From: Alphaproteobacteria bacterium
GTDB taxonomy: Bacteria > Pseudomonadota > Alphaproteobacteria > UBA2966
Assembly: GCA_021296255.1 (NCBI GenBank)
Contig: JAGWAU010000006.1
Span: forward strand, 85,216 to 149,215
Length of the DNA: 64,000 nucleotides
Reading direction: 5' to 3'
Part shown: positions 23,859 to 39,001 of the stretch, in pieces
How the letters are laid out: the number at the start of each line of letters is the position of its first letter
How positions within the stretch are numbered: the first letter of the stretch is position 1
Program-made: the position numbers and the translations under genes
The notes under the pieces: model-generated
Database searches by the model: none
Told to the model about the DNA's origin: nothing
What the model saw: the letters and a program-made list of their open reading frames with translations, nothing else

Positions 23859-25406
23859 ATGTCAGTCCAGGAAATTCCCGAGGAAATCGGCACTCCCGCG
23901 CCGGAGGTTCAGGCGACCTACGACGACGCGGTACGCCTGTCCGACAAGGTCGTCGTCGACGGCAAGCTCGACTCCGCCGTGACCGACGAGACCTTCGAGG
24001 TGGTCAACCCGGCCTGGCTGAACGTCATCGGATCGTCGCCCCGCTGCCGCGGGGCCGATGTCGACCGCGCCGTCGCCGCGGCCAAGAAGACCTTCAGGTC
24101 GTGGTCGCGCATGACCGCCAAGGAACGCGGCGCGCTCACGCACAAGCTCGCCGACGTCATCGAGGAGCACGCCGACGACATCGCCCGACTCGAAGCCTTG
24201 GAGACCGGCAACGCGTATGCGACGCAGGCGCGGCCCGAACTCGGCATGGCCATCGAGGTGCTGCGCATGTTCGCGGGATTCGCGACCGAACTGAAAGGCA
24301 ACACCGTGCCCTGGCTCAACGGCACGCTGCACTACACCACGCGCGACCCGATCGGGGTGGTCGCCGCGATCATCCCGTGGAACGCGCCGATCCTGCTGTG
24401 GGCCTGCAAGATCGCTCCCGCCATCGTGGCAGGCAACACGGTCGTCCTGAAGACCGCCGAGCAGGCGCCCCTCGCCGTGCTGAAATGCACCGAGGTCGCG
24501 CAGCAGGTGCTCCCGCCCGGCGTGGTCAACACCATCTCGGGCATGGGCGAGGAATGCGGCCGACCGCTCGCCGAGCACAAGGACGTACGCAAGATAACGT
24601 TCACCGGGTCGTGCCCGGTGGGGCGCCAGATCATGCATTACGCGGCGGACAAGATCTGCCCCGTGACGCTGGAGCTCGGAGGCAAGAGCCCCAACATCGT
24701 CATGCCCGATGCCGACCTCGATCTGGCGATCCCCGGCGTCATCCAGGGCATGCGGTTCTCGCGCCAAGGGCAGTCCTGCACGGCCGGTTCGCGCCTGTTC
24801 CTGCACAAGGAGGTCGCGGACCAGGTGATCGAACGCGCCATGGCCGCCATGAAGAACCTGAAGATCGGCGATCCGATGGATCCCGAGAGCGAGATCGGCA
24901 CGATCATCTCGCAGGAGCAGTTCGACCGCGTCACCCGGTACGTCGAGATGGCGCGCAACACGCCCGGCGCGGAGATCCTCTGCGGCGGTGGGCGGCCGGA
25001 CGACCCGGCGCTGCGCAAGGGTCTCTTCTTCGCACCGACGCTGATCAAGGACGTGCCGCACGAATCACCGTGCGCCCAGGAGGAAATCTTCGGGCCCGTC
25101 GCGGTCGTCTTCGAATGGGAGGACTTCGCCGCCGTGCTCGACAAGGCGAACGCCACCGAATACGGCCTCGCCGCGACGTTGTGGACGCGGGACCTCAACC
25201 ACGCGATGCGCTTCGTCGATGAGATCGAGGCCGGCCTGGTTCAGGTCAACCAGTACGGGACGCCGATCGCCAACGTCGCCTATGGAGGGCTCAACCAGAG
25301 CGGCCTCGGCAAGGAGCTGTCGCTCGAGAGCATGCTCGAGCATTTCACCCGCAGCCGCACGGTGATCATCAACCAGGGCACGCCGGATCCGGCCATCAAC
25401 GCCTGA
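23859..25406 (+). CDS. NAD(P)-dependent aldehyde dehydrogenase (betaine-aldehyde-type)
   Basis: 515 residues, normal ALDH superfamily: PWNAPILLWACKIAPAI, FTGSCPVGRQI (cofactor), ELGGKSPNIV (catalytic Glu) and GQSCTAGSRLF with nucleophile Cys307, then EEIFGPV. It oxidises an aldehyde to the free acid, unlike the acylating enzyme upstream. The next gene is a GMC alcohol oxidase, the same pair as in choline-to-betaine oxidation (betA-betB), so the two may convert an alcohol to an acid. Isethionate, choline or similar ethanol derivatives are possible. 58 bp separate it from the SucD-like gene, so one transcript is likely. Confidence 0.88.
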   Translation: MSVQEIPEEIGTPAPEVQATYDDAVRLSDKVVVDGKLDSAVTDETFEVVNPAWLNVIGSSPRCRGADVDRAVAAAKKTFRSWSRMTAKERGALTHKLADVIEEHADDIARLEALETGNAYATQARPELGMAIEVLRMFAGFATELKGNTVPWLNGTLHYTTRDPIGVVAAIIPWNAPILLWACKIAPAIVAGNTVVLKTAEQAPLAVLKCTEVAQQVLPPGVVNTISGMGEECGRPLAEHKDVRKITFTGSCPVGRQIMHYAADKICPVTLELGGKSPNIVMPDADLDLAIPGVIQGMRFSRQGQSCTAGSRLFLHKEVADQVIERAMAAMKNLKIGDPMDPESEIGTIISQEQFDRVTRYVEMARNTPGAEILCGGGRPDDPALRKGLFFAPTLIKDVPHESPCAQEEIFGPVAVVFEWEDFAAVLDKANATEYGLAATLWTRDLNHAMRFVDEIEAGLVQVNQYGTPIANVAYGGLNQSGLGKELSLESMLEHFTRSRTVIINQGTPDPAINA

Positions 25407-25475
25407 GGGGAACGAGGCATCGGACCCCACACGTTCCGTGCATCCGGGTCCGGCACCAATTTCCTTCAACGATCC

Positions 25476-27074
25476 ATGTCCGCCGGGTACGACCACATCG
25501 TCGTCGGCGCCGGTTCCGCCGGCAGCGTGCTCGCCGCGCGGCTGACCGAAGACGGCCGCACGCGGGTCCTGCTGCTCGAGGCCGGCGGCCGGAACTACAA
25601 CGACATCTGGGTGAGGATTCCCCTCGGCGTCGGCAAGATCCTCGACAGCGAACGTTACGTCTGGAAGGACCGGACCGAGCCCGAGATGACGGGTCGCTCG
25701 ATCTACTGGCCCCACGGGCGCCTGCTCGGCGGCTCGAGCTCGGTCAACGGCATGATCCACGTGCGCGGAGAACCGGCGCGCTACGACGAGTGGCGCGACA
25801 TGGGCTGCATGGGATGGGGCTATCCCGAGGTACTGCCCTACTTCAAGCGCCTCGAGACCGCGTCCTTCGGCAATCCGCAGTGGCGGGGACAGGACGGCCC
25901 CATCCACGCGACGAAAGTGGTGACGGACGATCCGGTCTCACAAGCGTTCCTGGAGGCCTGCAAGGAGGCCGGCCTGCCGGAGAACGAGGACTACAACGCG
26001 AGCTCCACCGAAGGGGTCACCCGTCATCAGTTGAGCACCCGCAAGGGGTTCCGGTGCGGGACCGCGGCGGGTTACCTCAACGACGCCAAGCGCCGGCCCA
26101 ACCTGCATATCGTCACCCATGCCGTGGCCAGCCGTGTCCTGTTCGAGGGCCGCCGCGCCGTCGGCGTCGCCTATCGCGTGGATGGCGAAGAGCTGGACGT
26201 CAGGGCCGGAAGGGAGGTCCTGCTGTCGGCCGGCGCGACAGCGTCGCCGCACCTGCTCGAGCTGTCGGGCGTCGGCGACGCGGGACTCCTCAGATCGCAC
26301 GGCATCCCGGTGGTGCGCGACTTGCCCGCGGTCGGGGAGAACCTCTCGGACCATCTGCACAACCGGCTCAACTTCGAAACCACGCACCCCGTCACGGCCA
26401 ACGACATCGTACGCAGCGCTCGGCACGCGGCCCGGCAGTTGCTCCGCTACGTCCTGCACCGGGACGGGATCTTCTCGACGCCCACCTTCAAGGTACAGGC
26501 CTTCGTGCGCTGCCACCCGGAGGCGCAATTCCCGGACGCCCGGATCCAATGCGCCCTGTCGAGCGGCACGAGCCGCTATGCCCGGGACCTCGACCGCTTT
26601 CCCGGCTTCCACATCGGGTCCTATTATCTGTGGCCGGAGTCGCGGGGCTCCATCCACCTGAAATCCGCCGATCCAGAGGAACGGCCGAAGATCCAGGTCA
26701 ACTATCTGGCGCATCTCCGCGACCGGGAAACCACCGTGCTCGCCTTCAAGAAGTCGCGGGAGATCGCGGCGCAACCCGCCTTGCGGAAGGTGATCGTGCG
26801 GGAGACCCGCCCGGGGCCGGAGGCCGTGACCGACGACGAGATCCTCGACTACATCATGCGGACCGGCGAGACCTCTTGGCATCCCGTCGGCACCTGCCGC
26901 ATGGGCTCCGATCCGGAATCGGTCGTCGACGAGGAGCTCCGGGTCCGCGGGCTGGATGGCCTCCGCGTCGTCGACGCCTCGGTGATGCCGCATCAGATTT
27001 CGAGCAACACCAATATTCCGACCATCATGATCGCCGAGCGCGCGGCGGACCTGATCCGGCGGAACCCGACATAG
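25476..27074 (+). CDS. GMC-family FAD alcohol oxidoreductase (choline dehydrogenase-like)
   Basis: 532 residues, glucose-methanol-choline family: N-terminal FAD site YDHIVVGAGSAGSVLAARL, GMC signature 1 GRLLGGSSSVNGMIHVRG, signature 2 near GATASPHLLELSGVG, and the C-terminal catalytic pair in TSWHPVGTCRMG and NTNIPTIMIAERAADLI. It passes electrons from an alcohol to FAD and the respiratory chain. Placed after an NAD aldehyde dehydrogenase and before a selenoprotein gene. Substrate open: choline, isethionate or another polar alcohol. Confidence 0.88.
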   Translation: MSAGYDHIVVGAGSAGSVLAARLTEDGRTRVLLLEAGGRNYNDIWVRIPLGVGKILDSERYVWKDRTEPEMTGRSIYWPHGRLLGGSSSVNGMIHVRGEPARYDEWRDMGCMGWGYPEVLPYFKRLETASFGNPQWRGQDGPIHATKVVTDDPVSQAFLEACKEAGLPENEDYNASSTEGVTRHQLSTRKGFRCGTAAGYLNDAKRRPNLHIVTHAVASRVLFEGRRAVGVAYRVDGEELDVRAGREVLLSAGATASPHLLELSGVGDAGLLRSHGIPVVRDLPAVGENLSDHLHNRLNFETTHPVTANDIVRSARHAARQLLRYVLHRDGIFSTPTFKVQAFVRCHPEAQFPDARIQCALSSGTSRYARDLDRFPGFHIGSYYLWPESRGSIHLKSADPEERPKIQVNYLAHLRDRETTVLAFKKSREIAAQPALRKVIVRETRPGPEAVTDDEILDYIMRTGETSWHPVGTCRMGSDPESVVDEELRVRGLDGLRVVDASVMPHQISSNTNIPTIMIAERAADLIRRNPT

Positions 27075-27179
27075 CCCGCCGTCAAGATGAACCGATGTGC
27101 GCCGCCCGGACCGTGGCTTTATCCGACGGCAAAAATCAGTATATTCCAGGTCGCTAATATCGAGATGGAGGAGACGGTA

Positions 27180-28478
27180 ATGGCACGTTGGGAAGAGCTT
27201 CCGGAGTACGAACGGGAATATCTCGCCGGGCTGCGGCTGCCCGAGTTCGACCATACGCCGTGGACCCCCGCCAAGCCGCTGTCGGAAAGGCGAATCGCGC
27301 TGATCTCGACCGCCGGTATCGAGCGCCGGGGCGACAAGCCCTACCCGTTCTTTTCCGGTGAGTTCCGCCTGATTCCGACCGACGTCGACCCGAGCGAGCT
27401 GGTGATGAGTCACCTGTCGCCGAACTTCGACCGCACGGGCTTCCAACAGGACATCAACGTGGTCATTCCCATCGACCGCATGCGCGAACTGGAGGCCGAG
27501 GGCTTCATCGGGTCGGTGGCGAAGTTCCATTACGCCTTCATGGGCGGGAGCCAGCCCCAGGACATGGAACCCCACGTGCCGGAGCTCGCCAGGCTGCTGC
27601 GCGGAGACGAAGTCGACACGGTGCTGATGTGCCCCGTCTGACCCCGCTGCACGCGCGCCGTCGGCGCGCTAGGCCACTATCTGGAGCGTGAAGGAATCGC
27701 CACGTCGAGCATCAGCCTAGTGCGTTTCCAAACGGAAAAGATGAGGCCGCCGCGAGCGCTGTGGGTGCCCTTCGAATTGGGACGCCCCTTCGGCACGCCG
27801 AACGATCCGGAGTTTCAGACCAAGGTGCTGAAGGCGCTGCTCGGGACACTGGAACCGGAGAACGGCCCGGTCCTGGCGGACTTCGACGAGGACGCGCCGC
27901 CGTCCCCGGCCGATACCGGCGACGATCAGGAGGCCTGGGCGTGCCCGATCGAGCTGCAGGCCCCGCCGCCGCAAACGAAAGGCGACGACGACGCCCTGGA
28001 ACAGGCGTTGCTGCGCGAGATCGGCCAGCTTCGTCCCTGGTACGAACTGTCGGTCGAGCAGCGCGGACGCACGACCGTCGGCGTCAGCCCCCTCGATATC
28101 GAGGGCAACGCCCGGTACATCGCGGCGTTCCTGGGCGATGAGTGGCCCGACTCCCCGTCGGAAGACATGAGCGCGACGGTGGCCCTCAAGCACGCGTTCG
28201 AGGACATGCGCGCGTGGTATTTCGAGGCGGTCGCCGCCCAGCCGGGACGGGTCACGGGGACCTCGACCCAGATCATCGACTGGTTCTGGCACGAAACGAC
28301 CGCCGGCGCCGTGCTCAAGAAGCTCGACGAGGTGTGCCGGGAGAGCGACGACGAGGTGATGCAGGCCTTCGGCGGCTTCCTTCTGCTCCCCCGTTACGTG
28401 ACGGGGTCGGTGGGCGACGGGTCGGACGGCCGCCGGAACGCCGAGTACGGAGACAATCCGGCGATTGCGGCGGAATGA
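27180..28478 (+). CDS. Selenoprotein: glycine/sarcosine/betaine/D-proline reductase selenoprotein B-family, Sec154 at in-frame TGA
   Basis: Read through the TGA at 27639-27641, the frame gives 432 residues with no other stop until 28478. Around the TGA the product reads VLMCPV-Sec-PRCTRAVGALGHYLE, an UxxC redox pair in the place where non-Sec relatives of this family, as I recall them, have CxxC. The part after the TGA (RPPRALWVPFELGRPFG) is the usual second half of the family and has no ribosome site of its own before GTG 27720. A SECIS-like hairpin follows the TGA. The start is ATG 27180, seven bases after GGAGGA. Anaerobic GrdB/PrdB enzymes reduce glycine, betaine or proline through the Sec; the role of the version in aerobic-type genomes is unknown. 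Neighbours are a GMC oxidase and a tautomerase. Confidence 0.88.
27653..27669 (+). promoter_or_regulatory. Candidate bacterial SECIS hairpin for Sec154
   Basis: Seven consecutive G-C pairs (GCGCGCC with GGCGCGC) close a three-base loop GTC at 27660-27662. The loop starts with G and begins 18 bases after the TGA, within the 16-37 base distance and the G-in-first-two-loop-bases rule described for bacterial SECIS elements. It lies inside the coding frame, as required for SelB-dependent decoding. There is no T-run after it, so it is not a terminator. Confidence 0.75.
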
Positions 28479-28543
28479 CGCCGCGGCGGCACGCCTGATC
28501 GACCTGCGACGGCGAGGACCACGAAGCGAAGGAGGCCCGAAGC

Positions 28544-28915
28544 ATGCCCATCGTCAGAGTGCAGATCCCGGAAGGGTATTCGAACGAGGTCAAGGACCGG
28601 ATCGCGGACGGGCTCCGCGACGCCATCAACGACTCCATCGACCCGGGCCAGAACGACCGCTTTCCCGAGACGCGCAAGTGGATCTATCCGGCGATCACGG
28701 AAGCCTACGGCGAATTGGGCAAGGGCCTGCCGACGGTGACCATCGACACGCGGCCGGGACGGTCACGGGAGCAGAAGGACCTCTGCGCCAAGCTGATCTG
28801 CGACCTCTTTGAAAAGGTCATGGGGACACGCGACGTCTACGTCCTGCTGCGCACCACGGAGACGGGGGATCACCTCGCCGGCGGGACGGCGCTGCCCGAG
28901 TGGAAGCCGGGTTAG
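28544..28915 (+). CDS. 4-oxalocrotonate tautomerase-like protein
   Basis: 123 residues beginning MPIVRVQIPEGYSNEVKDRI; after Met removal Pro-1 would be the catalytic base of the tautomerase superfamily. Two beta-alpha-beta halves are visible (PIVRVQIPEG and LPTVTIDTRPG). It resembles the longer CHCH/cis-CaaD-like members rather than the 62-residue 4-OT. A GGAGG ribosome site precedes ATG 28544. It follows the selenoprotein gene by 65 bp, so co-transcription is likely. Substrate unknown. Confidence 0.8.
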   Translation: MPIVRVQIPEGYSNEVKDRIADGLRDAINDSIDPGQNDRFPETRKWIYPAITEAYGELGKGLPTVTIDTRPGRSREQKDLCAKLICDLFEKVMGTRDVYVLLRTTETGDHLAGGTALPEWKPG

Positions 28916-28960
28916 GGCCGCTCGCCCGCGCCCCCGCCCGGAGCTTCGCCGCGGCAGCCG

Positions 28961-29662
28961 TCAAAAATTCTCGACCCAGGGGCGGAGCTCGATCTCCCAG
29001 GCCCAGGAACTGCGATCCTGCCGGAGGAAATGCAGGTAGCTCCGGGCGATGGCGTCCGGGTCGAGCATGCTGTCCGGATTGTCGGGCGGGTCCACTCGCT
29101 CGGGCCGGAGCGGATTGCGGATGCCGCCGTCGATGATGAAATGCCCGATGTGGATGCCCCTGGGGTGGAGCTCCCGCGCCATGCTCTGGGCCAAGCCCCG
29201 CAGGGCGAACTTGCCCATGGCGAACGAGGCGGACTGCACGTAACCCTTGACGCTGGCGGACGCCGCGGTGAACAGGATGGCGCCGTGACCGTTGGGCACC
29301 ATGCGTTGCGCGGCCGCCTGCGCGACGAGGAAGCCGCCATAGGCCGTGACGAGAATCGCGTTCTTCGTGGCCTCGCGGTCGATCTCGACGAAGGGCCCGC
29401 GCACGCGGGCGCTCGGATTGTAGATCACGACGTCCGGATCGTTCCCTTCCAACGCCCCGAACAGCGCGTCCACGTCGCCCGGCGACATTGCGTCGCACTC
29501 GTGAGCCGTGGCGCCGGTTTCGGAGCAGAGTTCCGAGAGGTCATCGACGCTCCGGGCGGCGAGCGATACGGTCATGCCCTCCGACGACAGCAGGCGGGCC
29601 AGAGAGGCAGAGAGACCGGGGCCGACCCCGACGATCAGGGCGTGCTTGTAGGTGGGAACCAT
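28961..29662 (-). CDS. SDR-family oxidoreductase with Phe at the catalytic Tyr position
   Basis: 233 residues, classical SDR size. The cofactor site is VGVGPGLSASLAR (about residues 11-23), with NPSARVRGPF in place of NNAG and the Ser block FTAASASVKG. The expected Tyr-xxx-Lys reads SFAMGK, that is Phe-xxx-Lys, so the general acid is missing or replaced. Either it is a non-catalytic partner or it belongs to an atypical group. It ends 45 bp from the convergent tautomerase gene and has the 1.1-kb decayed region upstream. Confidence 0.82.
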   Translation of the reverse strand: MVPTYKHALIVGVGPGLSASLARLLSSEGMTVSLAARSVDDLSELCSETGATAHECDAMSPGDVDALFGALEGNDPDVVIYNPSARVRGPFVEIDREATKNAILVTAYGGFLVAQAAAQRMVPNGHGAILFTAASASVKGYVQSASFAMGKFALRGLAQSMARELHPRGIHIGHFIIDGGIRNPLRPERVDPPDNPDSMLDPDAIARSYLHFLRQDRSSWAWEIELRPWVENF

Positions 29663-29774
29663 GACGGATGACCTCGTTTCGTTGAAATTGAAGCGAATTC
29701 TTCAGCACCAACTCATGCCATCCGGACGCGGGAGCGGCAAGTCCCCTCCTCCAATGAGCGCACAGCCGGAAACC

Positions 29775-29940
29775 GAGGCCCTAGGCCTTCGGCACACTCT
29801 CGAGAGTGGTGTTTGCCGGTCGGCAAGGGCCTGCCAATGGCTGGGGAAAGCTATTGGACCGCAGCTACGTCCAGACCACCGCCCGTTACACACGCCTCGC
29901 CGATACCTTGTCTCTCGGCCTTAACGTCACCCAGCCCCTG
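29775..29940 (+). pseudogene. Remnant of a tyrosine recombinase (integrase) C-terminus
   Basis: In one frame LGLRHTLESGV (29784-29813) matches the LRHTFASG box with the Arg and His of the integrase active site. In the next frame VGKGLPMAG and then, after another shift, WGKLLDRSYVQTTARYTRLAD gives the LLGHxxVQTTxRYxHLAD box with the nucleophilic Tyr. Two frame changes within 150 bases and no N-terminal part mean that the gene is dead. It marks a past integration event. Confidence 0.65.
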
Positions 29941-30131
29941 CCTGAGCCGTTCGAGTATCAGTGCGGCAATTCGCCTTCCAGCTCGGGCAGAGCCTCCGGC
30001 GCCTTATCCGGATAACGCGTCGAATCGCCCACAACCGCGCGGCATCCACCGGATCCGGAAGGACATGTCGACCGGCTCACAAAGGGAGCCGAGGGCACGC
30101 ATGATCGTATCGACCTCATGAAGTCCGAAAC

Positions 30132-30161
30132 GGAGTCGCGCCGGACCTCGGGTCCGACTCC
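30132..30161. repeat. Palindromic repeat, copy 1
   Basis: CGGACC-TCG-GGTCCG is a perfect six-base stem (30142-30156), and GGAGTC/ACTCC extend it across a four-base insertion. Same sequence core as copies at 30517, 32433 and 59303. Confidence 0.65.
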
Positions 30162-30173
30162 GGCGCGGGTCGC

Positions 30174-30441
30174 GGCCGCTGATGGCCTCGCGCAGGCCTT
30201 CGAGCAGGCCCTCGAGCTTCGCCTGGCCATGCTCGACCGCCCGCAAGCGTCCGTCCAGACGCTACCGAAGCTCAGCAATCTCTCCGCGCAGGCCGTCGAC
30301 CGCCTGCCGCGTTTCCTGGCGCAGCTCGTCAATGCGGGCGTTCAGGCGCTCGTCAAGCCGGGAGATGTCGGCCTTGAGCCAGGCGAACAGCCCGATCATC
30401 AACGCCGCGAGGGCGAGAAAGCCGCCGATCTCGATCATCAT
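30174..30441 (-). pseudogene. Small membrane-anchored coiled-coil protein, interrupted by TAG
   Basis: Starts MIEIGGFLALAALMIGLFAWLKADISRL: one membrane helix followed by a charged coiled coil (LDERLNARIDELRQETRQAVDGLRGEIAELR). A TAG at 30262-30264 stops it at about 59 residues, but the same frame continues with AKLEGLLEGLREAISG, the usual end of this type of short protein in alphaproteobacteria as I recall. The palindromic repeat at 30132-30161 sits right behind that end and may have removed the stop. Function unknown. Confidence 0.5.
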
Positions 30442-30516
30442 GGCCGCCAGTGTCACCCCGCTCTCTTCCCGCCGCACCGCGCGCGGCTCGCCGGAAGCCC
30501 GCGCAATTCGGGGTGG

Positions 30517-30537
30517 GGTCGGACCCGAGGTCCGACC
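30517..30537. repeat. Palindromic repeat, copy 2
   Basis: GGTCGGACC-CGA-GGTCCGACC: nine-base perfect arms and a three-base loop. It is directly followed by the duplicated Rieske 3' end, the same order as copy 3 and the real Rieske gene. Confidence 0.7.
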
Positions 30538-30635
30538 TCAACGAATTCAGCCTCCATTCCGCGGCGGCGACCGCAGCGAAGGACCGCTCGTGGTCCCTCA
30601 GCGCGTCGGATGAAGGCATCGCGCTCCGCGCTCTT
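30538..30635 (-). pseudogene. Duplicated 3' end of a Rieske oxygenase gene
   Basis: Read on the minus strand this gives ALRDHERSFAAVAAAE, nearly the last residues of the Rieske protein encoded at 32476 (ALRDYERSFAAAAAAE). Nucleotide similarity continues through the palindrome on one side and to about 30635 on the other, with small indels. The stop codon is changed to TGG. It is a decayed partial copy of about 100-120 bp. Confidence 0.65.
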
Positions 30636-30809
30636 GCAGGCCCGGCTTCCGCTGCGGCTGAAATCCGGGTGGATGTCTTGTCTGTCCGTGCTCATCCGTC
30701 GTGGCTTCGGCGTCTTCGCCGTCGGTCCACGAATCATTACGCTGACATGGCTGACTTCTCGCCACTGTTATCCTATAAACGCCGCGCATAAGCGAACATC
30801 GGGAGCAGC

Positions 30810-31526
30810 ATGATGGCACATTTCGATCCGAACGAAGTCGGCATGCGTCCGCCGCCGTTCAAACACACGGTCTACAACGCCCTCGTGGTGCCGCGGCCGA
30901 TCGGCTGGATCAGCACAGTGAGCCCGGACGGCGACTTCAACCTGGCACCTTTCAGCTTCTTCGCGCAGGTCAGCGGTTCCCCGCCCTGCGTCATCTACTG
31001 CCCCAACTACTTCAAGCCGGGGACCCGGGAGAGCAAAGACTCGCTCACCAACGCCGAGGACACCGGCGAGTTCGTCTACAACATGTGCACGGCCGAGCTC
31101 CTCGACCAGATGGTCGTCACATCCAAGCATTCGCCCCGGAACTTCGACGAGATGAAGGAGGCCGGGCTGGAGGGGGTGCCGTGCGAGAAGGTCGGGCCGC
31201 CGCGCCTGAAGAACTCTCCGATCGCCATGGAATGCAAGCACATGCAGACCATCGACATGCCCACGCCGCAGGACGGCAGCCGGGCCGCGATGGTCCTCGG
31301 TCACGTCGTCCAGATCCACGTCGCCGACGAGGTGATCACCGACGAGGGGCTGATCGACATGAGGAAGCTGCGCCCGGTGGGTCGCCTCGGCTACTACGAC
31401 TACACCATCGTCGAGCCGGAGAACATCTTCCCCTACAAGACCCCCGACGACGACCGTTTCCACGGCCACGAGTCGAAGGCCTGGGACGAGATCCAGCCGC
31501 GCGTCGAGGAGTTCGTGCAGGAGTGA
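30810..31526 (+). CDS. Flavin reductase-like FMN-binding protein
   Basis: 238 residues of the flavin reductase domain/flavoredoxin (DIM6/NTAB) family: ALVVPRPIGWISTVSPDGDFNLAPFSFF is the FMN-binding core, followed by GEFVYNMCTAELL. It may supply reduced flavin to a monooxygenase or act on its own substrate. GGGAGCAG precedes ATG 30810. Its stop overlaps the GTG start of the dehalogenase gene (GTGA), so translation is coupled. Confidence 0.85.
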   Translation: MMAHFDPNEVGMRPPPFKHTVYNALVVPRPIGWISTVSPDGDFNLAPFSFFAQVSGSPPCVIYCPNYFKPGTRESKDSLTNAEDTGEFVYNMCTAELLDQMVVTSKHSPRNFDEMKEAGLEGVPCEKVGPPRLKNSPIAMECKHMQTIDMPTPQDGSRAAMVLGHVVQIHVADEVITDEGLIDMRKLRPVGRLGYYDYTIVEPENIFPYKTPDDDRFHGHESKAWDEIQPRVEEFVQE

Positions 31527-32428
31527 TCTCGGCCAGGGACCCTCACCCGCGTCGGCGCGCCACCGTCCTCGGCCGCTCCATGGCCTACGTCGAGGCCGGG
31601 GCGGGGAGGTCCGTGGTGTTCCTACACGGAAACCCGACGTCGTCCTACCTGTGGCGAAACGTCATTCCGCACGTGGAGCCCGTGGCGCGCTGCATCGCGC
31701 CGGACCTCATCGGCATGGGGGATTCGGACAAGCTGCCGTCGTCCGACGACGAGGCCTACCGGTATGCCGTCCACCGGGACCATCTCGACGCGCTGATCGA
31801 GGCGCTCGACCTCGGCGGAGGGGTCGTCATGGTGGGCCAGGACTGGGGTTCGGTGCTGGCCTTCGACTGGGCGCGCCGCCACGCCGGCCGCATGGGCGGG
31901 ATCGTCCACTTCGAGGCCATCGTGACTCCCTTCACCTGGGAGGAATTCCCCGAGAATCCCGAGGCCGCGGACTCCACACGCCGCTGGTTCGAACGCCTGC
32001 GCTCTCCAGAGGGCGAGCGGATGATCCTCGAGGAGAACATGTTCGTGGAGACTCGCATCCCCTCGCGCACCCTGCGCCAGGTCACCGAAGAGGAGATGGA
32101 TGTCTACCGCCGGCCCTTCGCCGAGCCGGGAGAAGGCCGGCGCCCAACGCTGACCTGGGCGCGCAACCTGCCGGTCTCGGGCGAGCCGCCCGACGTCGTC
32201 GCCACGGTGGAGGCCAACGCCGCGTGGCTTCAGGAGACCCGGATTCCCAAAGTCTTCATCCGGGGCCGGCCGGGCGGCCTCATCCAGGGGCCGCGCATCG
32301 ATTTCTGCCGGAATCTGCCCAATACGCGGGAGATCGTCGTTCCGGGAGTCCACTACATCCAGGAAGACAGCCCCGACGAGATCGGACAGGCGGTCGCCGA
32401 CCTGGTCCGCGAGCTGGACGGCGGGTAG
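31523..32428 (+). CDS. Haloalkane dehalogenase-like alpha/beta hydrolase
   Basis: 301 residues, highly like the DhaA/LinB branch: FLHGNPTSSYLWRNVIPH with the halide-stabilising Asn37, nucleophile Asp107 in GQDWGSVLAF with Trp108, acid Glu131 in HFEAIV, and the late His in PGVHYIQED. These are the five working residues of class II haloalkane dehalogenases, which hydrolyse carbon-halogen bonds of short alkanes. GTG 31523 gives the usual N-terminus (ATVLGRSMAYVEAG); ATG 31580 would delete a strand. Coupled to the flavin reductase gene. Confidence 0.88.
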   Translation: MISARDPHPRRRATVLGRSMAYVEAGAGRSVVFLHGNPTSSYLWRNVIPHVEPVARCIAPDLIGMGDSDKLPSSDDEAYRYAVHRDHLDALIEALDLGGGVVMVGQDWGSVLAFDWARRHAGRMGGIVHFEAIVTPFTWEEFPENPEAADSTRRWFERLRSPEGERMILEENMFVETRIPSRTLRQVTEEEMDVYRRPFAEPGEGRRPTLTWARNLPVSGEPPDVVATVEANAAWLQETRIPKVFIRGRPGGLIQGPRIDFCRNLPNTREIVVPGVHYIQEDSPDEIGQAVADLVRELDGG

Positions 32429-32432
32429 AAGT

Positions 32433-32463
32433 TTTGGGGTCGGACCTGAGGTCCGATCCCAAA
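32433..32463. terminator. Palindromic repeat, copy 3, acting as bidirectional terminator-like hairpin
   Basis: A 14-pair stem (TTTGGGGTCGGACC with GGTCCGATCCCAAA, one G-T pair) and a TGA loop fills the 47 bp between two convergent genes. A-rich and T-rich ends on both sides suit termination in both directions. The core equals the dispersed palindrome. Confidence 0.65.
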
Positions 32464-32475
32464 TGAATTCGGCCC

Positions 32476-33927
32476 CTATTCCGCCGCCGCCGCGGCGGCG
32501 AAGGACCGCTCGTAGTCCCTCAGCGCGCCTTCGATGAAGGCATCGCGCTCAGCGCCCTCGTGGGCGTCGCCCGCGACCGCGATCTCCAGCACCTTCCGGC
32601 AGACCTCGCGAACGAGCTCGTCGTCGTCCCGGCCGTCTTGCACCGGGATGTCCAGCACCGTGTTGTTGGTGTAGACGTAGTTTCGCCGACCGGCGTTGGC
32701 GCGCGCGTGAACGGCCTCCTGCGCCATATACGGGTTCTCGCCGCGAACGGCTTGACGCAGGTTCTTCCGGTTCATGTAGACCCCGACGTCCTCCTTGGTC
32801 GGGTTCTCCATCGCGTGCCGGGCGATCCGCCGCTGGCTGGTCACGGCGTCCCAGTCGCCGGGCAGGCGCTGCGCCACCTCGCGGGGCCGCGCGCCGGTCT
32901 GCCCGTCGAGGAAGTCGGCCATGTCGTACCCGCACTTGGACTTGTCGCCCACGCCAAAGGGGTCGATCGACTCGCCGAACATGCGGAGGCCGAAGACGAT
33001 GCTGTTCTCGTCGTCGACGGGGACGTACCAGCGCGCCATGTAGACGCGATGGAAGTAGCGGGCTTCGCGGCCATCCTCGGCGGTATAGGGATGGAGAGTG
33101 AGGTTCGGCAGGATGACGTCGTTGAGACGCACCCAAACACTGTCCCGACCCACCCGGCGCCCAGCGCTGAAGATCATCGCCGTGTCGTCGCGGACCGAGG
33201 CGTATTCCATGACCGGAATTTGCGCGAAGACCGGATTGAAGGCGGTCGCCGGATAGCTCCCGTCGTCGTCGTCGCCGATCACGCGCATGTGCGGGCTGTG
33301 GAGCTGGGAGGTGTGCATCTGGTCGGGGATGTTGTCGAACACCTGAAGCCAGTTGCACGGGTAGATGTTGGAGTAGGAGGCGAACTCCAGGTCCCCGTAG
33401 GTGTGGAAGAACTCCCAGTCCGGGAACCTCGGCATCTCCTGGTAGTCGCCCATGTAGGCGAACACCATGCCGTAGCGCTCGAACGCGGGATAGGCGCCCT
33501 GGCCGACGATCCCGGACATGCGCTCGCCGCCGTCCGGCTCGCCGGGCACATCGAGGAGGGTCCCGTCTACGTTCCAATGAAAGCCGTGGTAGCAGCAGCG
33601 GATGCCGGTCTCCTGGACGATCCCGTACTCCAGCGAGGCGCCGCGATGGGCGCAGTGCCGGTGGAGAACGCCGACGCGCCCCGACTTGTCGCGGAACGCC
33701 ACAAGATCCTCGCCCAAGATGCGAATCGCGCGCGGTACGTCGGTCAACTCCTCGGACAGGCACACCGGCTGCCAGAAGCGGCGCATGAGGGCGCCCATAG
33801 GCGTTCCCGGATCGGTATGTGTCAGCTCGGCATCCTCGGGCAGGACCCCGGTCTTCTCGTAACCCCTGTAGGCCTGGCTCCTGCCGCGGCTGAAGCTGAG
33901 ATGGGCGTCGTCGGATTGCGTGCTCAT
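32476..33927 (-). CDS. Rieske non-heme iron oxygenase, alpha-type, single component
   Basis: 483 residues. Rieske ligands are Cys92-x-His94 (HCAHRGASLEYG) and Cys111-x2-His114 (CCYHGFHW). The catalytic domain has the mononuclear iron pattern around NWLQVFDNIPDQMHTSQLH. It is longer than the Rieske alpha subunits further on and resembles the phthalate/vanillate-demethylase-type group without a beta subunit. ATG 33927 follows GGAGGGA. The C-terminus is Ala-rich (SFAAAAAAE), and a broken copy of this end lies 2 kb away at 30538. Substrate unknown. Confidence 0.85.
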   Translation of the reverse strand: MSTQSDDAHLSFSRGRSQAYRGYEKTGVLPEDAELTHTDPGTPMGALMRRFWQPVCLSEELTDVPRAIRILGEDLVAFRDKSGRVGVLHRHCAHRGASLEYGIVQETGIRCCYHGFHWNVDGTLLDVPGEPDGGERMSGIVGQGAYPAFERYGMVFAYMGDYQEMPRFPDWEFFHTYGDLEFASYSNIYPCNWLQVFDNIPDQMHTSQLHSPHMRVIGDDDDGSYPATAFNPVFAQIPVMEYASVRDDTAMIFSAGRRVGRDSVWVRLNDVILPNLTLHPYTAEDGREARYFHRVYMARWYVPVDDENSIVFGLRMFGESIDPFGVGDKSKCGYDMADFLDGQTGARPREVAQRLPGDWDAVTSQRRIARHAMENPTKEDVGVYMNRKNLRQAVRGENPYMAQEAVHARANAGRRNYVYTNNTVLDIPVQDGRDDDELVREVCRKVLEIAVAGDAHEGAERDAFIEGALRDYERSFAAAAAAE

Positions 33928-34072
33928 GCGTGGTCCCTCCGGTTCGCTCCCCTGCCCGCGACGGCGGCGTCGACATCGCCGCCACCGTTCCGTCGGAACG
34001 GTTCGAGTTTTACTGGAACCGCCCCAGAAATCCAAACGCCGATCCGGCGAGGCCCGGGCCGATCGGCGCCGC

Positions 34073-34477
34073 TCAGGGGACCGCCGCGTAGGCCTCGATC
34101 TCGACCTGCCAGTCGTCGACCGCGAGACCGGCGACGATCACCGCGGTGGCCGCCGGAAAATCGACCGGAAAATTCTCCAGCCGGACCTGCTTCCAGAAGG
34201 GAACGGCAGCCTTGGTCGTGAAGTAGGCGTTGACCTTGACGACATGCTCGAGCCCGGCGCCCGCGACCTCGAGAGCCGCCCTCATGTTGGCCATGGCCTG
34301 GCGGATCTGGGTTTCCACGTCGTCGCTCACGGTCATGCCGTTCTCGTCGACGGGCCCCTTGCCGGCGATGAAGAGAATACGGCCCCCGCGCACGCCGACA
34401 ACGGAACTGTAGTCGGCAACCGGCGCCCCAAAGCCCTTGACGTCAGGACGGTCCACGACGAAGCCGGAGTCAGTCAT
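34073..34477 (-). CDS. RidA/YjgF-family protein
   Basis: 134 residues of the RidA superfamily: ILFIAGKGPVDENG, TQIRQAMANMRAALEVAGAGLEHVVKV and FPAATAVIVAGLAVDDWQVEIEAYA are the family blocks. The Arg that marks active deaminases (PxR) is not seen; the position reads PAATAV, so this may be a non-deaminase subgroup. ATG 34477 has GGGAGG seven bases before it; TTG 34483 is less likely. Probably an independent unit behind the Rieske gene. Confidence 0.8.
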   Translation of the reverse strand: MTDSGFVVDRPDVKGFGAPVADYSSVVGVRGGRILFIAGKGPVDENGMTVSDDVETQIRQAMANMRAALEVAGAGLEHVVKVNAYFTTKAAVPFWKQVRLENFPVDFPAATAVIVAGLAVDDWQVEIEAYAAVP

Positions 34478-34748
34478 TTTCAACCTCCCAGTGCATCTTC
34501 AGAATAGCGCGACGATGGGCGGGATGCACGTCCGTCGGCGAATTCCGCCCCCTGCACCGCAGACCCCCGCTCAAGCCGATCGCTCCTGCCGGACTCGTCG
34601 CGTTTGTGCTGTTCCTGACGCCCCGCGTGTCGCGCCGGGAACAGACGCCGGCACCGGGACAGCGGATATTTCGAACGACAGGAAAGGGACGCGGGGTCGC
34701 GCGTCCCTTCCTAGTCTCGAATGTCCGTCGTTCACAGGGGTCGTCGCC

Positions 34749-36068
34749 ATGGCACCAAGATCCATGCCTCTCGAATCTTCCACAGCCAAGACCGTCAGGG
34801 CGCCGAAGACCGCCCGCAAACCCAAGGCCAAACGTCCGCCGGTTATCGATATCAAGAAGCGCGGCGTTCCCGTCAACCTGCGCCAGAGCGGCAACAGCGA
34901 AGCCCGCATGCTGATCTCGACCCGAGTTCGCAAGAGCCCCTACTGGCACCTCTCCCATCAGGAAGGCTGCTGGGCCTACACCGTCTACAACCACATGTAT
35001 CATCCGCGGGCCTACGTCAGCATGATGCAGGGCGGCTTGATGAAGGAGTACGAATACCTCACCAAGCACGTGACGATGTGGAACGTCGCGGTGGAGCGGC
35101 AGATACAGGTCAAGGGGCCGGACGCCGCGGAGTTCGTGAACCTGCTGATCACCCGCGACGTCCACAAGAAGCTGCCGACGAACATGTGTCGCTACGTCAT
35201 CCTCTGCAATCACGAGGGCGGCATCATCAACGACCCGGTGTTGCTGCGGGTTGCGGAGGACGAATTCTGGTTCAGCATCTCGGATTCGGACGTTTTGCTG
35301 TGGGCGCAGGGCGTCAACGCCTTTTCGGGCCACGACGTGACGATCAGGGAGATCGACGTCTCGCCGGTGCAGATCCAGGGTCCCAAGTCCGTCAAGCTGA
35401 TGACCAAGCTGTTCGGGCGCAAGGTCCTCAACATCCCCTATTACGGCCTGATGCACGCCAGACTCGGTCGGTCGAAGGTCGTGATCTCACGAACGGGGTT
35501 CTCCGGCGAGGTCGGTTACGAGATCTACCTGCGCGATGCCACACGCCATGCCGACGAGATGTGGCACGCGGTCAAGAGAGCGGGCGAGCAGTACAACCTG
35601 CGGGTCATCGCCCCGAGCCACATCCGCCGTCTGGAAGCCGGCATCCTGTCCTACGGCCAGGACATGGACATCGAGACCAACCCGTTCGAGGTCGGCCTCG
35701 GCTGGCAGGTCGATTTCTCGAAGGACGACTTCATCGGCAAGGCGGCGCTCCGGAAGATCAAGAAGGCAGGCGTGAAGCAGAAGCTCGCCGGCCTGAAGAT
35801 GGGGGGCAGCCCCATCACCTGGTACAACGAGGATTTCTGGTACGTGACCAACCGCTCGGGCCAGGAGATCGGTTACATCACCAGCGCCTTCTGGTCGCCG
35901 ACCCACAACACCAACATCGCCCTCGCGACCCTGCCCGCCGCCCACGCCAGGATCGGCACCCGGTTGAAGGCGGTGCTGCCGGCCGAAGATAGGCCCGTAG
36001 ATGCGGAAGTCGTTCCGATGCCCTTTAAGGACCCGAAGAAGGAAATCCCCAAGCAGGCGGTACGCTAG
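34749..36068 (+). CDS. GcvT-family tetrahydrofolate methyltransferase, DMSP-demethylase (DmdA)-like
   Basis: 439 residues of the aminomethyltransferase fold. A basic Pro/Lys-rich leader (residues about 1-50) precedes the fold. AYTVYNHMYHPRAY, VERQIQVKGPDAAEFVNLL, VSPVQIQGPKS and GFSGEVGYEIYLRD resemble DmdA and related demethylases more than GcvT of the glycine cleavage system. It would transfer a methyl group from sulfur, nitrogen or oxygen to tetrahydrofolate. It is not near gcvH/gcvP, but close to Rieske and DMGDH-like genes in the opposite orientation. Start ATG 34749 (AGGGG eight bases before); ATG 34764 is possible. Substrate not proven: true DmdA, or a relative acting on other methylated compounds. 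Confidence 0.78.
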   Translation: MAPRSMPLESSTAKTVRAPKTARKPKAKRPPVIDIKKRGVPVNLRQSGNSEARMLISTRVRKSPYWHLSHQEGCWAYTVYNHMYHPRAYVSMMQGGLMKEYEYLTKHVTMWNVAVERQIQVKGPDAAEFVNLLITRDVHKKLPTNMCRYVILCNHEGGIINDPVLLRVAEDEFWFSISDSDVLLWAQGVNAFSGHDVTIREIDVSPVQIQGPKSVKLMTKLFGRKVLNIPYYGLMHARLGRSKVVISRTGFSGEVGYEIYLRDATRHADEMWHAVKRAGEQYNLRVIAPSHIRRLEAGILSYGQDMDIETNPFEVGLGWQVDFSKDDFIGKAALRKIKKAGVKQKLAGLKMGGSPITWYNEDFWYVTNRSGQEIGYITSAFWSPTHNTNIALATLPAAHARIGTRLKAVLPAEDRPVDAEVVPMPFKDPKKEIPKQAVR

Positions 36069-36123
36069 GCCGGCACTACCGCCGGAGCACCGGAGAAGGG
36101 AGGCGGGCCGCCAAGCCCGATCC

Positions 36124-36555
36124 CTACGGTACCTTCTCGAAGCGGACCCTGAGGCGGCGTTCGGAGAACTTCCAGCCGTCGGCCGTGCGCACATACGTGT
36201 CGTGATACTCACCGATCCAGTCGGGCCGGTCATAGGGGATCGGGCCGTCGGCCTCGGTGTGCGGACCCGCACAACGATAGACGGCGAGGTAGACCTCGCC
36301 CCGGGCCGTGTCCTTGTCGACCGGCTCGTACCAGTAATTGGTGCAGAAGTGGCGAGTCACCATCTGTTCGCGATCGGCGAAATGACCTTTGATGGCGTCG
36401 TGGCCATGGCGCTCGACACCGCCGATCTCAAGCACGGCATCCCCTGTGAACAGGGTGACGAACGAATCGAAATTTTGCCTGTCGGCGTAGCGGACGTAGT
36501 CGTCGTTGAGGCGCCGCAGCTCCCACTCCATCTCCATGCGTTCGGTCAGTTTCAC
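36124..36555 (-). CDS. SnoaL/NTF2-like protein
   Basis: 143 residues of the NTF2-like cone fold (SnoaL-like domain): LNDDYVRYADRQNFDSFVTLFTGDAVLEIGG at the start and WIGEYHDTYVRTADGWKFSERRLRVRFE at the end. Such proteins hydrate or isomerise small rings or serve as beta-type partners of Rieske oxygenases. It is the last gene of the minus-strand Rieske group, 120 bp after the beta subunit gene. Its GGAGGG-type site lies before ATG 36555. Confidence 0.8.
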   Translation of the reverse strand: MKLTERMEMEWELRRLNDDYVRYADRQNFDSFVTLFTGDAVLEIGGVERHGHDAIKGHFADREQMVTRHFCTNYWYEPVDKDTARGEVYLAVYRCAGPHTEADGPIPYDRPDWIGEYHDTYVRTADGWKFSERRLRVRFEKVP

Positions 36556-36675
36556 CGGATCACCCTCCCACTGAATTCAACTGCCGCCAGCATGACGGCG
36601 GCACAGCAGCCTTGGCCCACAAGCGGCGGCCAAGCCTGAGCGCGACTTCATCCTGAAGCGCCTGTGCGCCGGCGG

Positions 36676-37134
36676 CTACATCGGCAGATGGGTGCCGATG
36701 CCCACCTCGCGGGTCTCGAGCTTCATGTTCCGATCGGCGATCAGCGGCGTATCACCGGAGACGTCGATCACGTCGTGGTAGCGACCGACCGCCCAGACGC
36801 TCGTCGCGCCCTCAGGTGTCGTGTAGTAGATGGTCACGTATGTGAGCGCCTTGGCGGTATCGGCGCCGTCGCGCTCGATTTCATAGACCGTGGCGTGACG
36901 CATGAAGCTGCCGAGCAAACGAAAGTGCAGGGGCACGTTGGCCAGCAGCCCTTTCATTTCGCCCCTGTTGACGTCCATCCACTCCTGCTCCCTGCGGATT
37001 TCGCGGGAGTAGTTGGTGATCCTGTACTCGAACTCCTCCGTATAGAGATCGAGGTAGTCGTCGAACTCCTCGGCATCGAGAAACCGGCACGATTTATGGA
37101 TCAAATTCCTGATCTGATCGTCGGTGATCGTCAT
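36676..37134 (-). CDS. Aromatic-ring-hydroxylating dioxygenase beta subunit
   Basis: 152-residue small subunit (NTF2-like fold) of Rieske dioxygenases: IHKSCRFLDAEEFDDYLDLYTEEFEYRI and ERDGADTAKALTYVTIYY are family blocks. It packs under the alpha subunit and has no metal. ATG 37134 gives MTITDDQIRN; the longer frame to 37263 would overlap the alpha gene end. The alpha gene lies 58 bp upstream. A paralogue is at 48256, with a similar length and end (GIGTHLPM versus GIGSHVPI). Confidence 0.85.
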   Translation of the reverse strand: MTITDDQIRNLIHKSCRFLDAEEFDDYLDLYTEEFEYRITNYSREIRREQEWMDVNRGEMKGLLANVPLHFRLLGSFMRHATVYEIERDGADTAKALTYVTIYYTTPEGATSVWAVGRYHDVIDVSGDTPLIADRNMKLETREVGIGTHLPM

Positions 37135-37192
37135 CGCAGTCAGTCGAATCCGACGGAGCGGGCGCTCGGGACCCGCTCCGGAATTCAAAGCG

Positions 37193-38428
37193 CTACTCGG
37201 CCGCCGCCATGAAGTTCCTGGGATTGTTGGCTGGCCGTCCCATGAGCCTTCCCCACTCTCCATAGAAGTGGCGGAGATAGGCGTCGCTGTGAATGCGTTC
37301 GTGCACCTGATCCTCGAAGTACTCGACGCGGGACATCAGGTCGTAAGGATTCGCGCCGTTCTCCTGGCAGGCATGCGTCGCCTCGACGTAGGCGCAGTCC
37401 TCCGATGCGTTGCGGCTGAAAGGCCCCCAGATCTGGATGAACTGCTTCGAGCGGCTTCTGCGATCCTCCTTCGATTCGCCCTTAATGCCGAGCCCGCGCT
37501 CTTCCATGATCGTGTGACCCGGTGCGATCGGCGTCGAATGATTGAGGCGGATGCAGGTGGCACGGAAGAAAACCGATAAATTCGGAAAAATATCGGTAAC
37601 CCGGAACTCGCCCGGCGCCAAGCCCTTGAAGACGAGATCGTCGCGGTTCTTCCAGCTCTTGTATTTCTTGTACTGGACCTGGAACGGGCTGCCGTCGATC
37701 AGGTGCGCATTGTACCCGTGGCCGTTCCGCTGCATCCGCCAGGGACGATCGTGATAGCCCGGAGTCAACACGCTGGTGGTACGATTCACCAAGTGAGACC
37801 ATTCGTGATAGAGGTCGCAATTGGTGAGATACCAAGCCTTCCAGTTCCCGCGCACGTGAGTCTGATTGTAGTGGAAGACCTCCAGTTCGTGGTTGTTGAA
37901 GATCTCCTCGAAGGGCTCCCCCGCCTCGCCGATGTAGTCGCGCAACGACTCGGCGGCACCGTCGAAGTTGATGAACACGAGGCCGGCAAAAACGTCCGTG
38001 CGAATCTCGCGAAGCGAGAGGTCTTCCCTGGCCGGGCCCAACTCCTCGTAGGCTTCCCCGCGAGGTTGATAGGTGCAGTTGCCGAACAGGTCGTATTCCC
38101 ACATATGGAAGAAGCACGTCATGTGCTTCATGTTGCCGGCCGGCTCGCGCACGATCTTGGCGCCACGGTGCGAGCAGGTGTTCACGAAGGTGCGGATCCC
38201 GTCATCGTTGCCGCGCACGGTGACCAGCGGTACGCCGGTCCACTGGTGGGCTCGGAAGTCGCCGACCTCCGCGACTTCGCTGACGTGGCAGACGAACTTC
38301 CATGTGCGGCGCAGGATCTTCTCTTCTTCCTCCCCAAAGATGTCCGGATCGGTATAGACGGACGAGTGGACGTAAGCGTCACCCTGAACACTGGGCGGAG
38401 AGAGGTGTTCTTCAGCTGTACGCGCCAT
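37193..38428 (-). CDS. Rieske ring-hydroxylating dioxygenase alpha subunit
   Basis: 411 residues. Rieske site: Cys85-x-His87 (TCSHRGA) and Cys105-x2-His108 (CFFHMW). Mononuclear iron: the DLYHEWSH block (Asp-x2-His-x4-His-like). It belongs to a complete system in one minus-strand group: beta subunit, Rieske ferredoxin (38587) and ferredoxin reductase (39002). Together they insert oxygen into a ring or remove an N/O-methyl group. The promoter area has a perfect inverted repeat (38465-38487), so it is probably regulated on its own. The paralogue at 47055 shares both motifs. Confidence 0.88.
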   Translation of the reverse strand: MARTAEEHLSPPSVQGDAYVHSSVYTDPDIFGEEEEKILRRTWKFVCHVSEVAEVGDFRAHQWTGVPLVTVRGNDDGIRTFVNTCSHRGAKIVREPAGNMKHMTCFFHMWEYDLFGNCTYQPRGEAYEELGPAREDLSLREIRTDVFAGLVFINFDGAAESLRDYIGEAGEPFEEIFNNHELEVFHYNQTHVRGNWKAWYLTNCDLYHEWSHLVNRTTSVLTPGYHDRPWRMQRNGHGYNAHLIDGSPFQVQYKKYKSWKNRDDLVFKGLAPGEFRVTDIFPNLSVFFRATCIRLNHSTPIAPGHTIMEERGLGIKGESKEDRRSRSKQFIQIWGPFSRNASEDCAYVEATHACQENGANPYDLMSRVEYFEDQVHERIHSDAYLRHFYGEWGRLMGRPANNPRNFMAAAE

Positions 38429-38464
38429 GCTAAATCCCCGGAATGTAAGGCGTTTCCTCGATCC

Positions 38465-38516
38465 TTAGGTCAATAACTCTGACCTAATGCGCAACGATAC
38501 GACATTCTAGAGAATG
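38465..38516 (-). promoter_or_regulatory. Two inverted repeats upstream of the Rieske alpha gene
   Basis: TTAGGTCA (38465-38472) and TGACCTAA (38480-38487) form a perfect 8-base dyad with a seven-base spacer, 37-59 bp before the start codon. A second dyad, CATTCT-AG-AGAATG, lies at 38503-38516. The first is shaped like an operator for a dimeric regulator; the regulator is unknown. Confidence 0.55.
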
Positions 38517-38586
38517 CCGCAATCGCGATGAACGGCGAAACCTCCTTTCGCGGCGGGATCCCGGCACCATTCTGCGGGCCCGCGTG

Positions 38587-38916
38587 TCATTGGTAGTCGT
38601 ACCTGAGCTCTTTCTCCAAATTCACGAGCACGGCACCGTCCTCGACCTTGACCTCATAGAGGAGCAGCGGACTCTCGGCATTCTCCCGCATGTCGCCGGT
38701 CTTCATATTCCACTGCCAGAGGTGCTTGATGCAGGTGAGCGTATCGCCGTCGATCATGCCGAGGGATAGCGGCGTCTCCTGGTGCGGACAAAACGGGGGA
38801 TAGGCGAAGAATTCCCCGCCGGCGTTGGCAACGAGGATGGTGATATCGCCGATCTCGAACTCGTGCAGTTCTTCTTCGTCGACATCGTCGACGGCGCAAA
38901 CCCGTTGCCAGCTCAT
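38587..38916 (-). CDS. Rieske-type ferredoxin of the dioxygenase system
   Basis: 109 residues with Cys43-x-His45 (FCPHQETPL) and Cys62-x2-His65 (CIKHLWQW), the [2Fe-2S] Rieske ligands of toluene/biphenyl-type ferredoxins. It shuttles electrons from the reductase encoded at 39002 to the oxygenase alpha subunit. ATG 38916 has GGAGGTG eight bases before it; the GTG at 38925 lies within that site and is not the start. Confidence 0.88.
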   Translation of the reverse strand: MSWQRVCAVDDVDEEELHEFEIGDITILVANAGGEFFAYPPFCPHQETPLSLGMIDGDTLTCIKHLWQWNMKTGDMRENAESPLLLYEVKVEDGAVLVNLEKELRYDYQ

Positions 38917-39001
38917 GTGGATCACCTCCGCGCCCTGGTTCGCCGACGAAACCTAGCGGCCCAGCCTGCTCTTCACAACGGGCTACCGCCTCCGGCGAGG
39001 C

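Follow-up and report, generated by a model that had tools for sequence, protein, structure and literature searches.

Bacterial SECIS elements are described in one published model as hairpins with a loop of 3-9 nt carrying G[G|U], a stem of 4-16 bp, a distance of 16-37 nt from the UGA and a minimum free energy (MFE) of -7.5 kcal/mol or lower (PMC13188914), while one review names a bulged U and an unpaired G-U in the apical loop as conserved prokaryotic features (PMC8704476). A survey from 2006 reports that Cys genes can retain remnant SECIS-like structures, and gives formate dehydrogenase as the sole selenoprotein of the selenocysteine (Sec)-decoding Alphaproteobacteria then known (PMC1794560). 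Selenoproteins assigned to PrdB have been counted in marine metagenomes, with 42 Sec sequences from the Sargasso Sea (PMC1088965) and 235 Sec and 110 Cys sequences from the Global Ocean Sampling data (PMC2398784).

Here we analyse a hairpin that follows an in-frame TGA in a 64,000-nt stretch of alphaproteobacterial DNA (the whole of which is called the window below). We conclude with high confidence that this hairpin is a bacterial SECIS element of a GrdB/PrdB-related selenoprotein. The observations behind this conclusion are the position of the hairpin, its pairing, covariation, synonymous constraint, its dependence on TGA rather than Cys in one type of family member, and the Sec machinery genes of the host genome.

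The gene, its product and its surroundings

With the TGA at 27639 read as Sec (residue 154), the gene at 27180-28478 on the plus strand has 432 codons and closes with an ordinary TGA stop at 28476-28478; a purine-rich GGAGGAG (27167-27173) stands just 5' of it. The frame runs open up to the internal TGA, where translation table 11 ends it, and again beyond it. Residues 15-153 match the Pfam family GRDB (PF07355) at 40.9 bits (gathering cut-off 22) on profile positions 200-344 of 347, and the PrdB model TIGR04483 scores 119.2 bits, under its curated cut-off of 300. Judged by these profile matches, the gene is GrdB/PrdB-related, and its product appears to be a relative of D-proline reductase PrdB, not an equivalog. 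No Pfam match was found in the 278 residues after Sec (27642-28475). An AlphaFold model with Cys in place of Sec reached a mean pLDDT of 86.8 and a pTM of 0.87, and predicted confidence was good for most of the post-Sec part, except for a stretch at about residues 241-270 and the tail. Foldseek gave no match in the PDB at E 0.001 or better, and a sequence search for solved relatives gave none at E up to 1. The best score in a second structure comparison, Z 8.0, covered residues 32-240; because matches at this level were scattered over many unrelated entries, a common outcome, we draw no function from them.

The gene sits among catabolic genes (window 23859-40045). Pfam matches in the scanned neighbours comprise an ALDH, a GMC oxidoreductase, a tautomerase, an SDR, a flavin reductase-like protein and an alpha/beta hydrolase; the ALDH gene (23859-25406) also ends in TGA. 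By eye, we take the ORFs at 32476-34035 and 37193-38428 to encode Rieske-type oxygenases, that at 39002-40045 a ferredoxin reductase-like protein and that at 34437-36068 a GcvT-like protein. ORFs were clustered around those loci among the best 80 of 321 relatives that had at least 6 kb of sequence, together with part of the window. The two halves of the gene itself were found at 72 loci each and the next-widest cluster at 18; most neighbour clusters looked like synteny within one genus. Among the best 80 loci, two have selA close to the gene, one has selB and three have selD.

Elsewhere in the host genome, selA (574 bits), selB (436 bits) and tRNA-Sec (71.7 bits) stand side by side on one contig (C64), with selD (309 bits) on another (C65). 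A tRNA search of the window itself found none, and an Rfam search of the whole window gave no match at the gathering score. The genome holds five PrdB-like genes including this one, two of them adjacent on contig C92, and all five have TGA at the site.

Family members and the residue at the TGA site

Genome records were scanned for relatives with the N-terminal part of the protein alone, the Sec codon and stem being left out of the query. The best 80 of the 321 relatives that the scan found all carry TGA at the conserved site; because only these 80 were carried forward, the set is short of distant copies, some of which may have Cys. Copies from further genomes, some of them with Cys, were added. 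The combined set holds 167 distinct motif-fitting sites, namely 109 Sec UxxCT, 35 Sec UxxCHQ, 21 Cys CxxCHQ (the HQ-type Cys sites below) and two Cys CxxCT. Eleven non-fitting loci (three late Sec UxxCHQ, seven Sec UxxDHQ and one Cys CxxDHQ) were counted apart and do not enter the covariation, consensus-fold, GCA-codon and MFE counts. A Cys codon occupies the site in 24 distinct sites of these other relatives.

Two features of the family are worth recording in their own right. A subfamily with the motif UPLDHQT (UxxD) has Asp in place of the usual second active-site Cys; its members are L136, L137, L191, L192, L193, L194 and L196 with Sec, and L168 with Cys. Two genomes, G574 and G660, have six family matches each (L158, L159, L177-L180, L183, L190, L192, L193, L200 and L205), with TGA at the site in 12 of 12, suggesting that PrdB-like selenoproteins have multiplied in certain Alphaproteobacteria.

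Hairpin geometry and chance background

The in-frame TGA at 27639-27641 (plus strand), also TGA in relatives and paralogues, encodes the first residue of the putative UxxCT active-site motif. It is followed by the 11-nt spacer CCCCGCTGCAC (27642-27652), within which TGC (27648-27650) encodes the second active-site Cys and whose length is identical, gap-free, in 99 distinct aligned segments. The stem arms GCGCGCC (27653-27659) and GGCGCGC (27663-27669) are perfect complements and form a continuous, GC-only stem of 7 bp. They enclose a GTC loop (27660-27662) that begins with G, its G-U being loop positions 1-2, so that 11 nt separate the TGA from the stem and 18 nt separate it from the loop. The arms are assigned from pairing and covariation, the 5' arm also from the codon bias of ACG, CGC and GCC, and the loop from the G at position 1 in all TGA sites. 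The MFE fold also places a possible lower helix, weak in this gene, between 27646-27648 and 27672-27674. In all these respects of stem, loop, spacing and loop G the sequence is as the original prediction described it, and the further claim that such values fall within the published SECIS rules also holds (7 bp, loop 18 nt from the UGA, -16.6 kcal/mol for the RNA fold of 27642-27686).

Agreement with these rules says little by itself. Within the window, the same exact geometry with a loop G follows 1 of 709 TGA triplets on the plus strand and none of 759 on the minus strand. Of these triplets, 15 on each strand precede a Watson-Crick stem-loop that obeys the published limits and has 7 bp or more; with the minimum lowered to 5 bp the numbers are 102 (plus) and 105 (minus). 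The fold energy has a z of -0.06 against dinucleotide shuffles. The window has a GC content of 66%, and both rule fit and stability are common in DNA of such composition, so that the hairpin alone is weak evidence. The published consensus rules as sole evidence were rejected as too permissive in this window. On the comparative data below, the feature of the hairpin that chance does not explain is its conservation. A conserved Val codon begins with the loop G, which makes a test of the loop G partly a test of the protein, and we therefore took synonymous positions and Cys homologues as controls.

Constraint on stem and loop

To express pairing against what the protein alone imposes, we compared each group with 400 null means from recodings that keep the protein and draw on each gene's own codon frequencies. 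The UxxCT Sec sites (n = 109) average 6.43 of seven pairs against 3.97 in the null (highest null mean 4.25), with at least six pairs in 101 of 109 against 12.7 expected; the UxxCHQ Sec sites (n = 35) average 5.89 against 4.01 (highest 4.40), with at least six pairs in 31 of 35 against 1.8 expected. All seven pairs are formed in each of the seven UxxDHQ Sec sites, and six of seven in the three late UxxCHQ Sec sites (P 0.07 to 0.35 each). The HQ-type Cys sites (n = 21) average 4.19 pairs against a null of 3.86, and none of the 21 reaches six. The two Cys CxxCT sites, a group too small to judge, have four and six pairs (six in L206), and the lone Cys CxxDHQ site, L168, has six of seven, which is chance level there (P 0.40). 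The loop opens with G at all 154 distinct TGA sites, as against 6 of the 21 HQ-type Cys sites, and its second base is U in 141 of 144 Sec sites.

The original prediction had named TGA-bearing homologues without the loop G or the stem as the observation that would speak against it. None lacks the loop G, but in part the stem does fall short, as 12 of the 144 Sec sites form no more than five of the seven fixed pairs. In nine of those 12 a hairpin with a CGUGA or AGUUG loop still occupies that position and fits the consensus, while L059, L075 and L161 have fewer than six pairs and no consensus-fitting hairpin at the expected place. When the MFE fold is required to pass the consensus with the loop in place, 98 of 109 UxxCT and 33 of 35 UxxCHQ Sec sites do so. 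The 13 of 144 Sec sites that fail (another fold preferred or the energy limit missed) include two in the host genome, and ten of the 13 have six or seven pairs available but prefer a different fold; among the paralogues, the MFE fold of own_L001_3164 and own_L004_1927 does not give the hairpin at the expected place. A third paralogue, own_L005, is of the HQ type and reaches that shape with A-U at four of its six pairs, from which it follows that a GC-rich stem is not essential.

Folding energy separates the Sec and Cys groups poorly; what differs is where the hairpin lies. The HQ-type Cys sites have a mean energy of -12.96 against -9.81 in the null (mean z -0.92), against a mean z of -1.37 and -1.21 in the two Sec groups, yet only 2 of 21 pass the consensus at the expected place and 9 of 21 anywhere. 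We dropped energy as evidence because the fold of the window hairpin matches shuffles and the Cys copies also beat their own null.

Covarying bases and codon choice

Covariation was scored on 99 distinct 30-nt segments from the 144 Sec sites, aligned without gaps, in which 88% of stem cells are paired. The score was 0.458, against 0.152 (sd 0.012) when shuffled and at most 0.129 with the partners slid, and 111 cells had changed on both sides against 27.8 expected. Two of the five measures stayed at shuffle level (both-side-changed pairs, 5 vs 4.4; further pair types, 15 vs 13.7), and much of the covariation lies between the CT and HQ subfamilies, that is, in few events. Within subfamilies, synonymous changes pair as well: the Gln codon CAA occurs opposite Leu TTG and CAG opposite Leu CTG, with one G-U case. 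Of the His codons, CAT is partnered by A and CAC in most instances (16 of 20) by G. Amino acid replacements bring matching changes. Pair 2 is U-A in L100 and G-C in L099, pairs 2 and 5 of L093 change where Arg is replaced by Cys and Ala by Thr, and pair 5 is U-A in L181. The closing pair 7 fails in 45 of the 99 segments. In 32 of the 109 UxxCT sites Gly at +9 brings a G-G mismatch at pair 3, while the third base of the Gly codon still pairs at pair 2; that codon is GGG 30 times, where 6.6 were expected (z 10.4), and the other two copies, whose partner base is U, have GGA.

Codon bias was measured in 80 of the 84 CT-type genes over 136 conserved columns, a control of the same ancestry. Thr+4, Arg+5 and Ala+6 (ACG, CGC and GCC), which lie in the 5' arm, are the three most biased of the 136 columns (z 11.4, 10.1 and 9.4). 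The 128 columns outside +1 to +10 have a mean z of 1.98 and a maximum of 8.4, and three far columns (-77, -74 and +82), at z 8.2 to 8.4, exceed Gly+8 (7.6) and the loop codon Val+7 (7.5).

A second codon preference lies below the core stem. Where the eleventh codon after the TGA is Ala, it is GCA in 26 of 47 (6.1 expected, z 8.9) and in 12 of 30 (3.0 expected, z 5.6) Sec genes, as against 1 of 21 HQ-type Cys genes (2.2 expected). Pairing between this GCA and TGC, the codon of the second Cys, would form a lower helix beneath a short internal loop, and the enrichment supports such a helix in these relatives. UxxCT genes with Gly at the eleventh codon, this gene included, use GGC without bias (30 of 50 vs 30.6), and the lower helix of the window gene, where that codon is GGC, is only weakly predicted by the fold model.

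Sec and Cys copies in the family tree

A protein tree built without the residues from Sec to +11 needs seven Sec/Cys changes, five of them forced by well-supported branches. Across the five independent Sec/Cys contrasts, scored on the first six stem pairs, the full stem goes with Sec in 3.1 on average, is opposite in none and equal in 1.9 (median p 0.25), five pairs being too few for significance. Of 53 other genomes that match the family, 50 were surveyed for SelB (all but G422, G582 and G614). A SelB over the curated cut-off occurs in 27 of 28 Sec-only genomes, in both of the two genomes with Sec and Cys copies, and in 1 of 20 Cys-only genomes. The genome G645 has a Sec-type copy, L175, but no SelB over the cut-off; a missing contig, contamination or a stranded Sec gene are the options we see. 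Separately, L120 (Cys) and L119 (Sec) form a natural near-minimal pair, with nearly identical peptides after the site, in which AGC in the Cys copy in place of AGT in the Sec copy breaks pair 5.

Interpretation and alternative explanations

We propose that, as the ribosome nears the UGA at 27639, SelB carrying Sec-tRNA-Sec would bind the stem-loop in the mRNA through its G-U loop and deliver Sec to the A site at that codon; the helix would then be unwound and its bases translated as Thr-Arg-Ala-Val-Gly-Ala-Leu. The relationship to GrdB and PrdB suggests that the Sec selenolate may act on a bond of the substrate, so that the enzyme would probably carry out reductive chemistry on some substrate; the proposal that a GrdB-like protein carries out C-F cleavage in Synergistota offers an analogy only (PMC10838667).

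The alternative with most to recommend it is that the hairpin is a by-product of the conserved peptide TRAVGAL written in GC-rich codons, with no function as RNA. The protein does fix the loop G, as the opening of the Val codon, together with several stem bases; chance hairpins of at least 5 bp after TGA are frequent in the window, the fold is no more stable than its shuffles, and the far columns -77, -74 and +82 show that strong codon bias arises away from the stem. We nevertheless consider this explanation very improbable. The synonymous null already contains the peptide and the codon usage, and it falls well short of the 6.43 pairs seen; ACG, CGC and GCC are almost fixed though the same genes commonly use other codons; the preference for GGG at Gly+9 and the matching changes in L093, L099, L100 and L181 follow the pairing; and the HQ-type Cys relatives do not keep the stem. 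A conserved hairpin might also, or instead, pause the ribosome or control translation of the downstream half, since a strong stem soon after a codon can pause ribosomes. Pairing that tracks the TGA/Cys state in the HQ-type copies, and SelB presence that tracks the TGA state, make this less probable still.

The remaining alternatives concern the TGA itself. Were it a real stop, a sequencing error or the mark of a decayed gene, the downstream frame would be untranslated, as table 11 has it. TGA recurs at the same site in the best 80 of 321 relatives and in the paralogues, an alignment of 38 proteins (A4) shows invariant residues before and after the site, and a confident fold is predicted across it, so that we give this reading scarcely any weight. 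A variant code in which UGA specifies some other amino acid has the in-frame TGA in its favour, but is already contradicted by ordinary stops, for genes of the window, this one included, end in TGA; the site moreover aligns to Cys in relatives, and Sec machinery genes are present. This is the least probable of the readings, and we regard it as negligible.

The identification of the hairpin as a SECIS element, first made from the window sequence, is thus strongly supported by the invariant loop G, a stem that is mostly kept and compensatory changes. The suggestion that came with it, that this hairpin broadens the set of loops SelB accepts, does not stand, as a 3-nt loop starting with G-U lies within the model as published (PMC13188914).

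Comparison with known systems

What is known already is the kind of element, and PrdB selenoproteins were reported in 2005; details that are possibly new are the lower helix marked by GCA, the subfamily with Asp (UxxD) and the lack of a bulged U. The SECIS element of E. coli fdhF has a larger loop and is less GC-rich than the window hairpin. Both have an adjacent unpaired G and U in the apical loop, but the core stem in the window has no bulged U, a feature that the review gives for the prokaryotic SECIS (PMC8704476). A bulged U is absent from the continuous 7-bp stem, and the aligned relatives show no column of unpaired U in the 5' arm. We put forward tentatively, and on balance lean against, a wider proposal: that SelB reads a bulge-free stem with a G-U loop (a triloop here, CGUGA in the HQ type), with a lower helix of TGC and the rare GCA in some relatives, and that the UxxCT, UxxCHQ and UxxDHQ types share this design despite different stems, in up to six copies per genome. 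If the bulge-free reading is true, recognition would rest on the loop G-U and the geometry of the helix without a bulged U.

Against the model of the bacterial SECIS element, the window hairpin fits every point, and lies inside coding sequence right after the Sec-UGA (PMC13188914). A stop that splits the gene under table 11 thereby becomes a well-supported selenoprotein. With the marine PrdB selenoproteins the protein has in common the family name, the UxxC motif and the relation to PF07355 (PMC1088965, PMC2398784), whereas the clostridial PrdB enzyme subunit is given as 26 kDa (PMC13188914) against 432 residues here. In contrast with the 2006 survey, where formate dehydrogenase stood alone, five PrdB-like genes with in-frame TGA occur in this one genome. 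Sec and Cys copies of one motif provide natural controls by which RNA and protein constraint in a bacterial SECIS can be told apart. Like the remnant SECIS-like structures described in Cys genes (PMC1794560), the family shows exchange of Sec and Cys and possible hairpin traces in L206 and L168; unlike them, its 21 HQ-type Cys copies on average pair hardly above synonymous chance.
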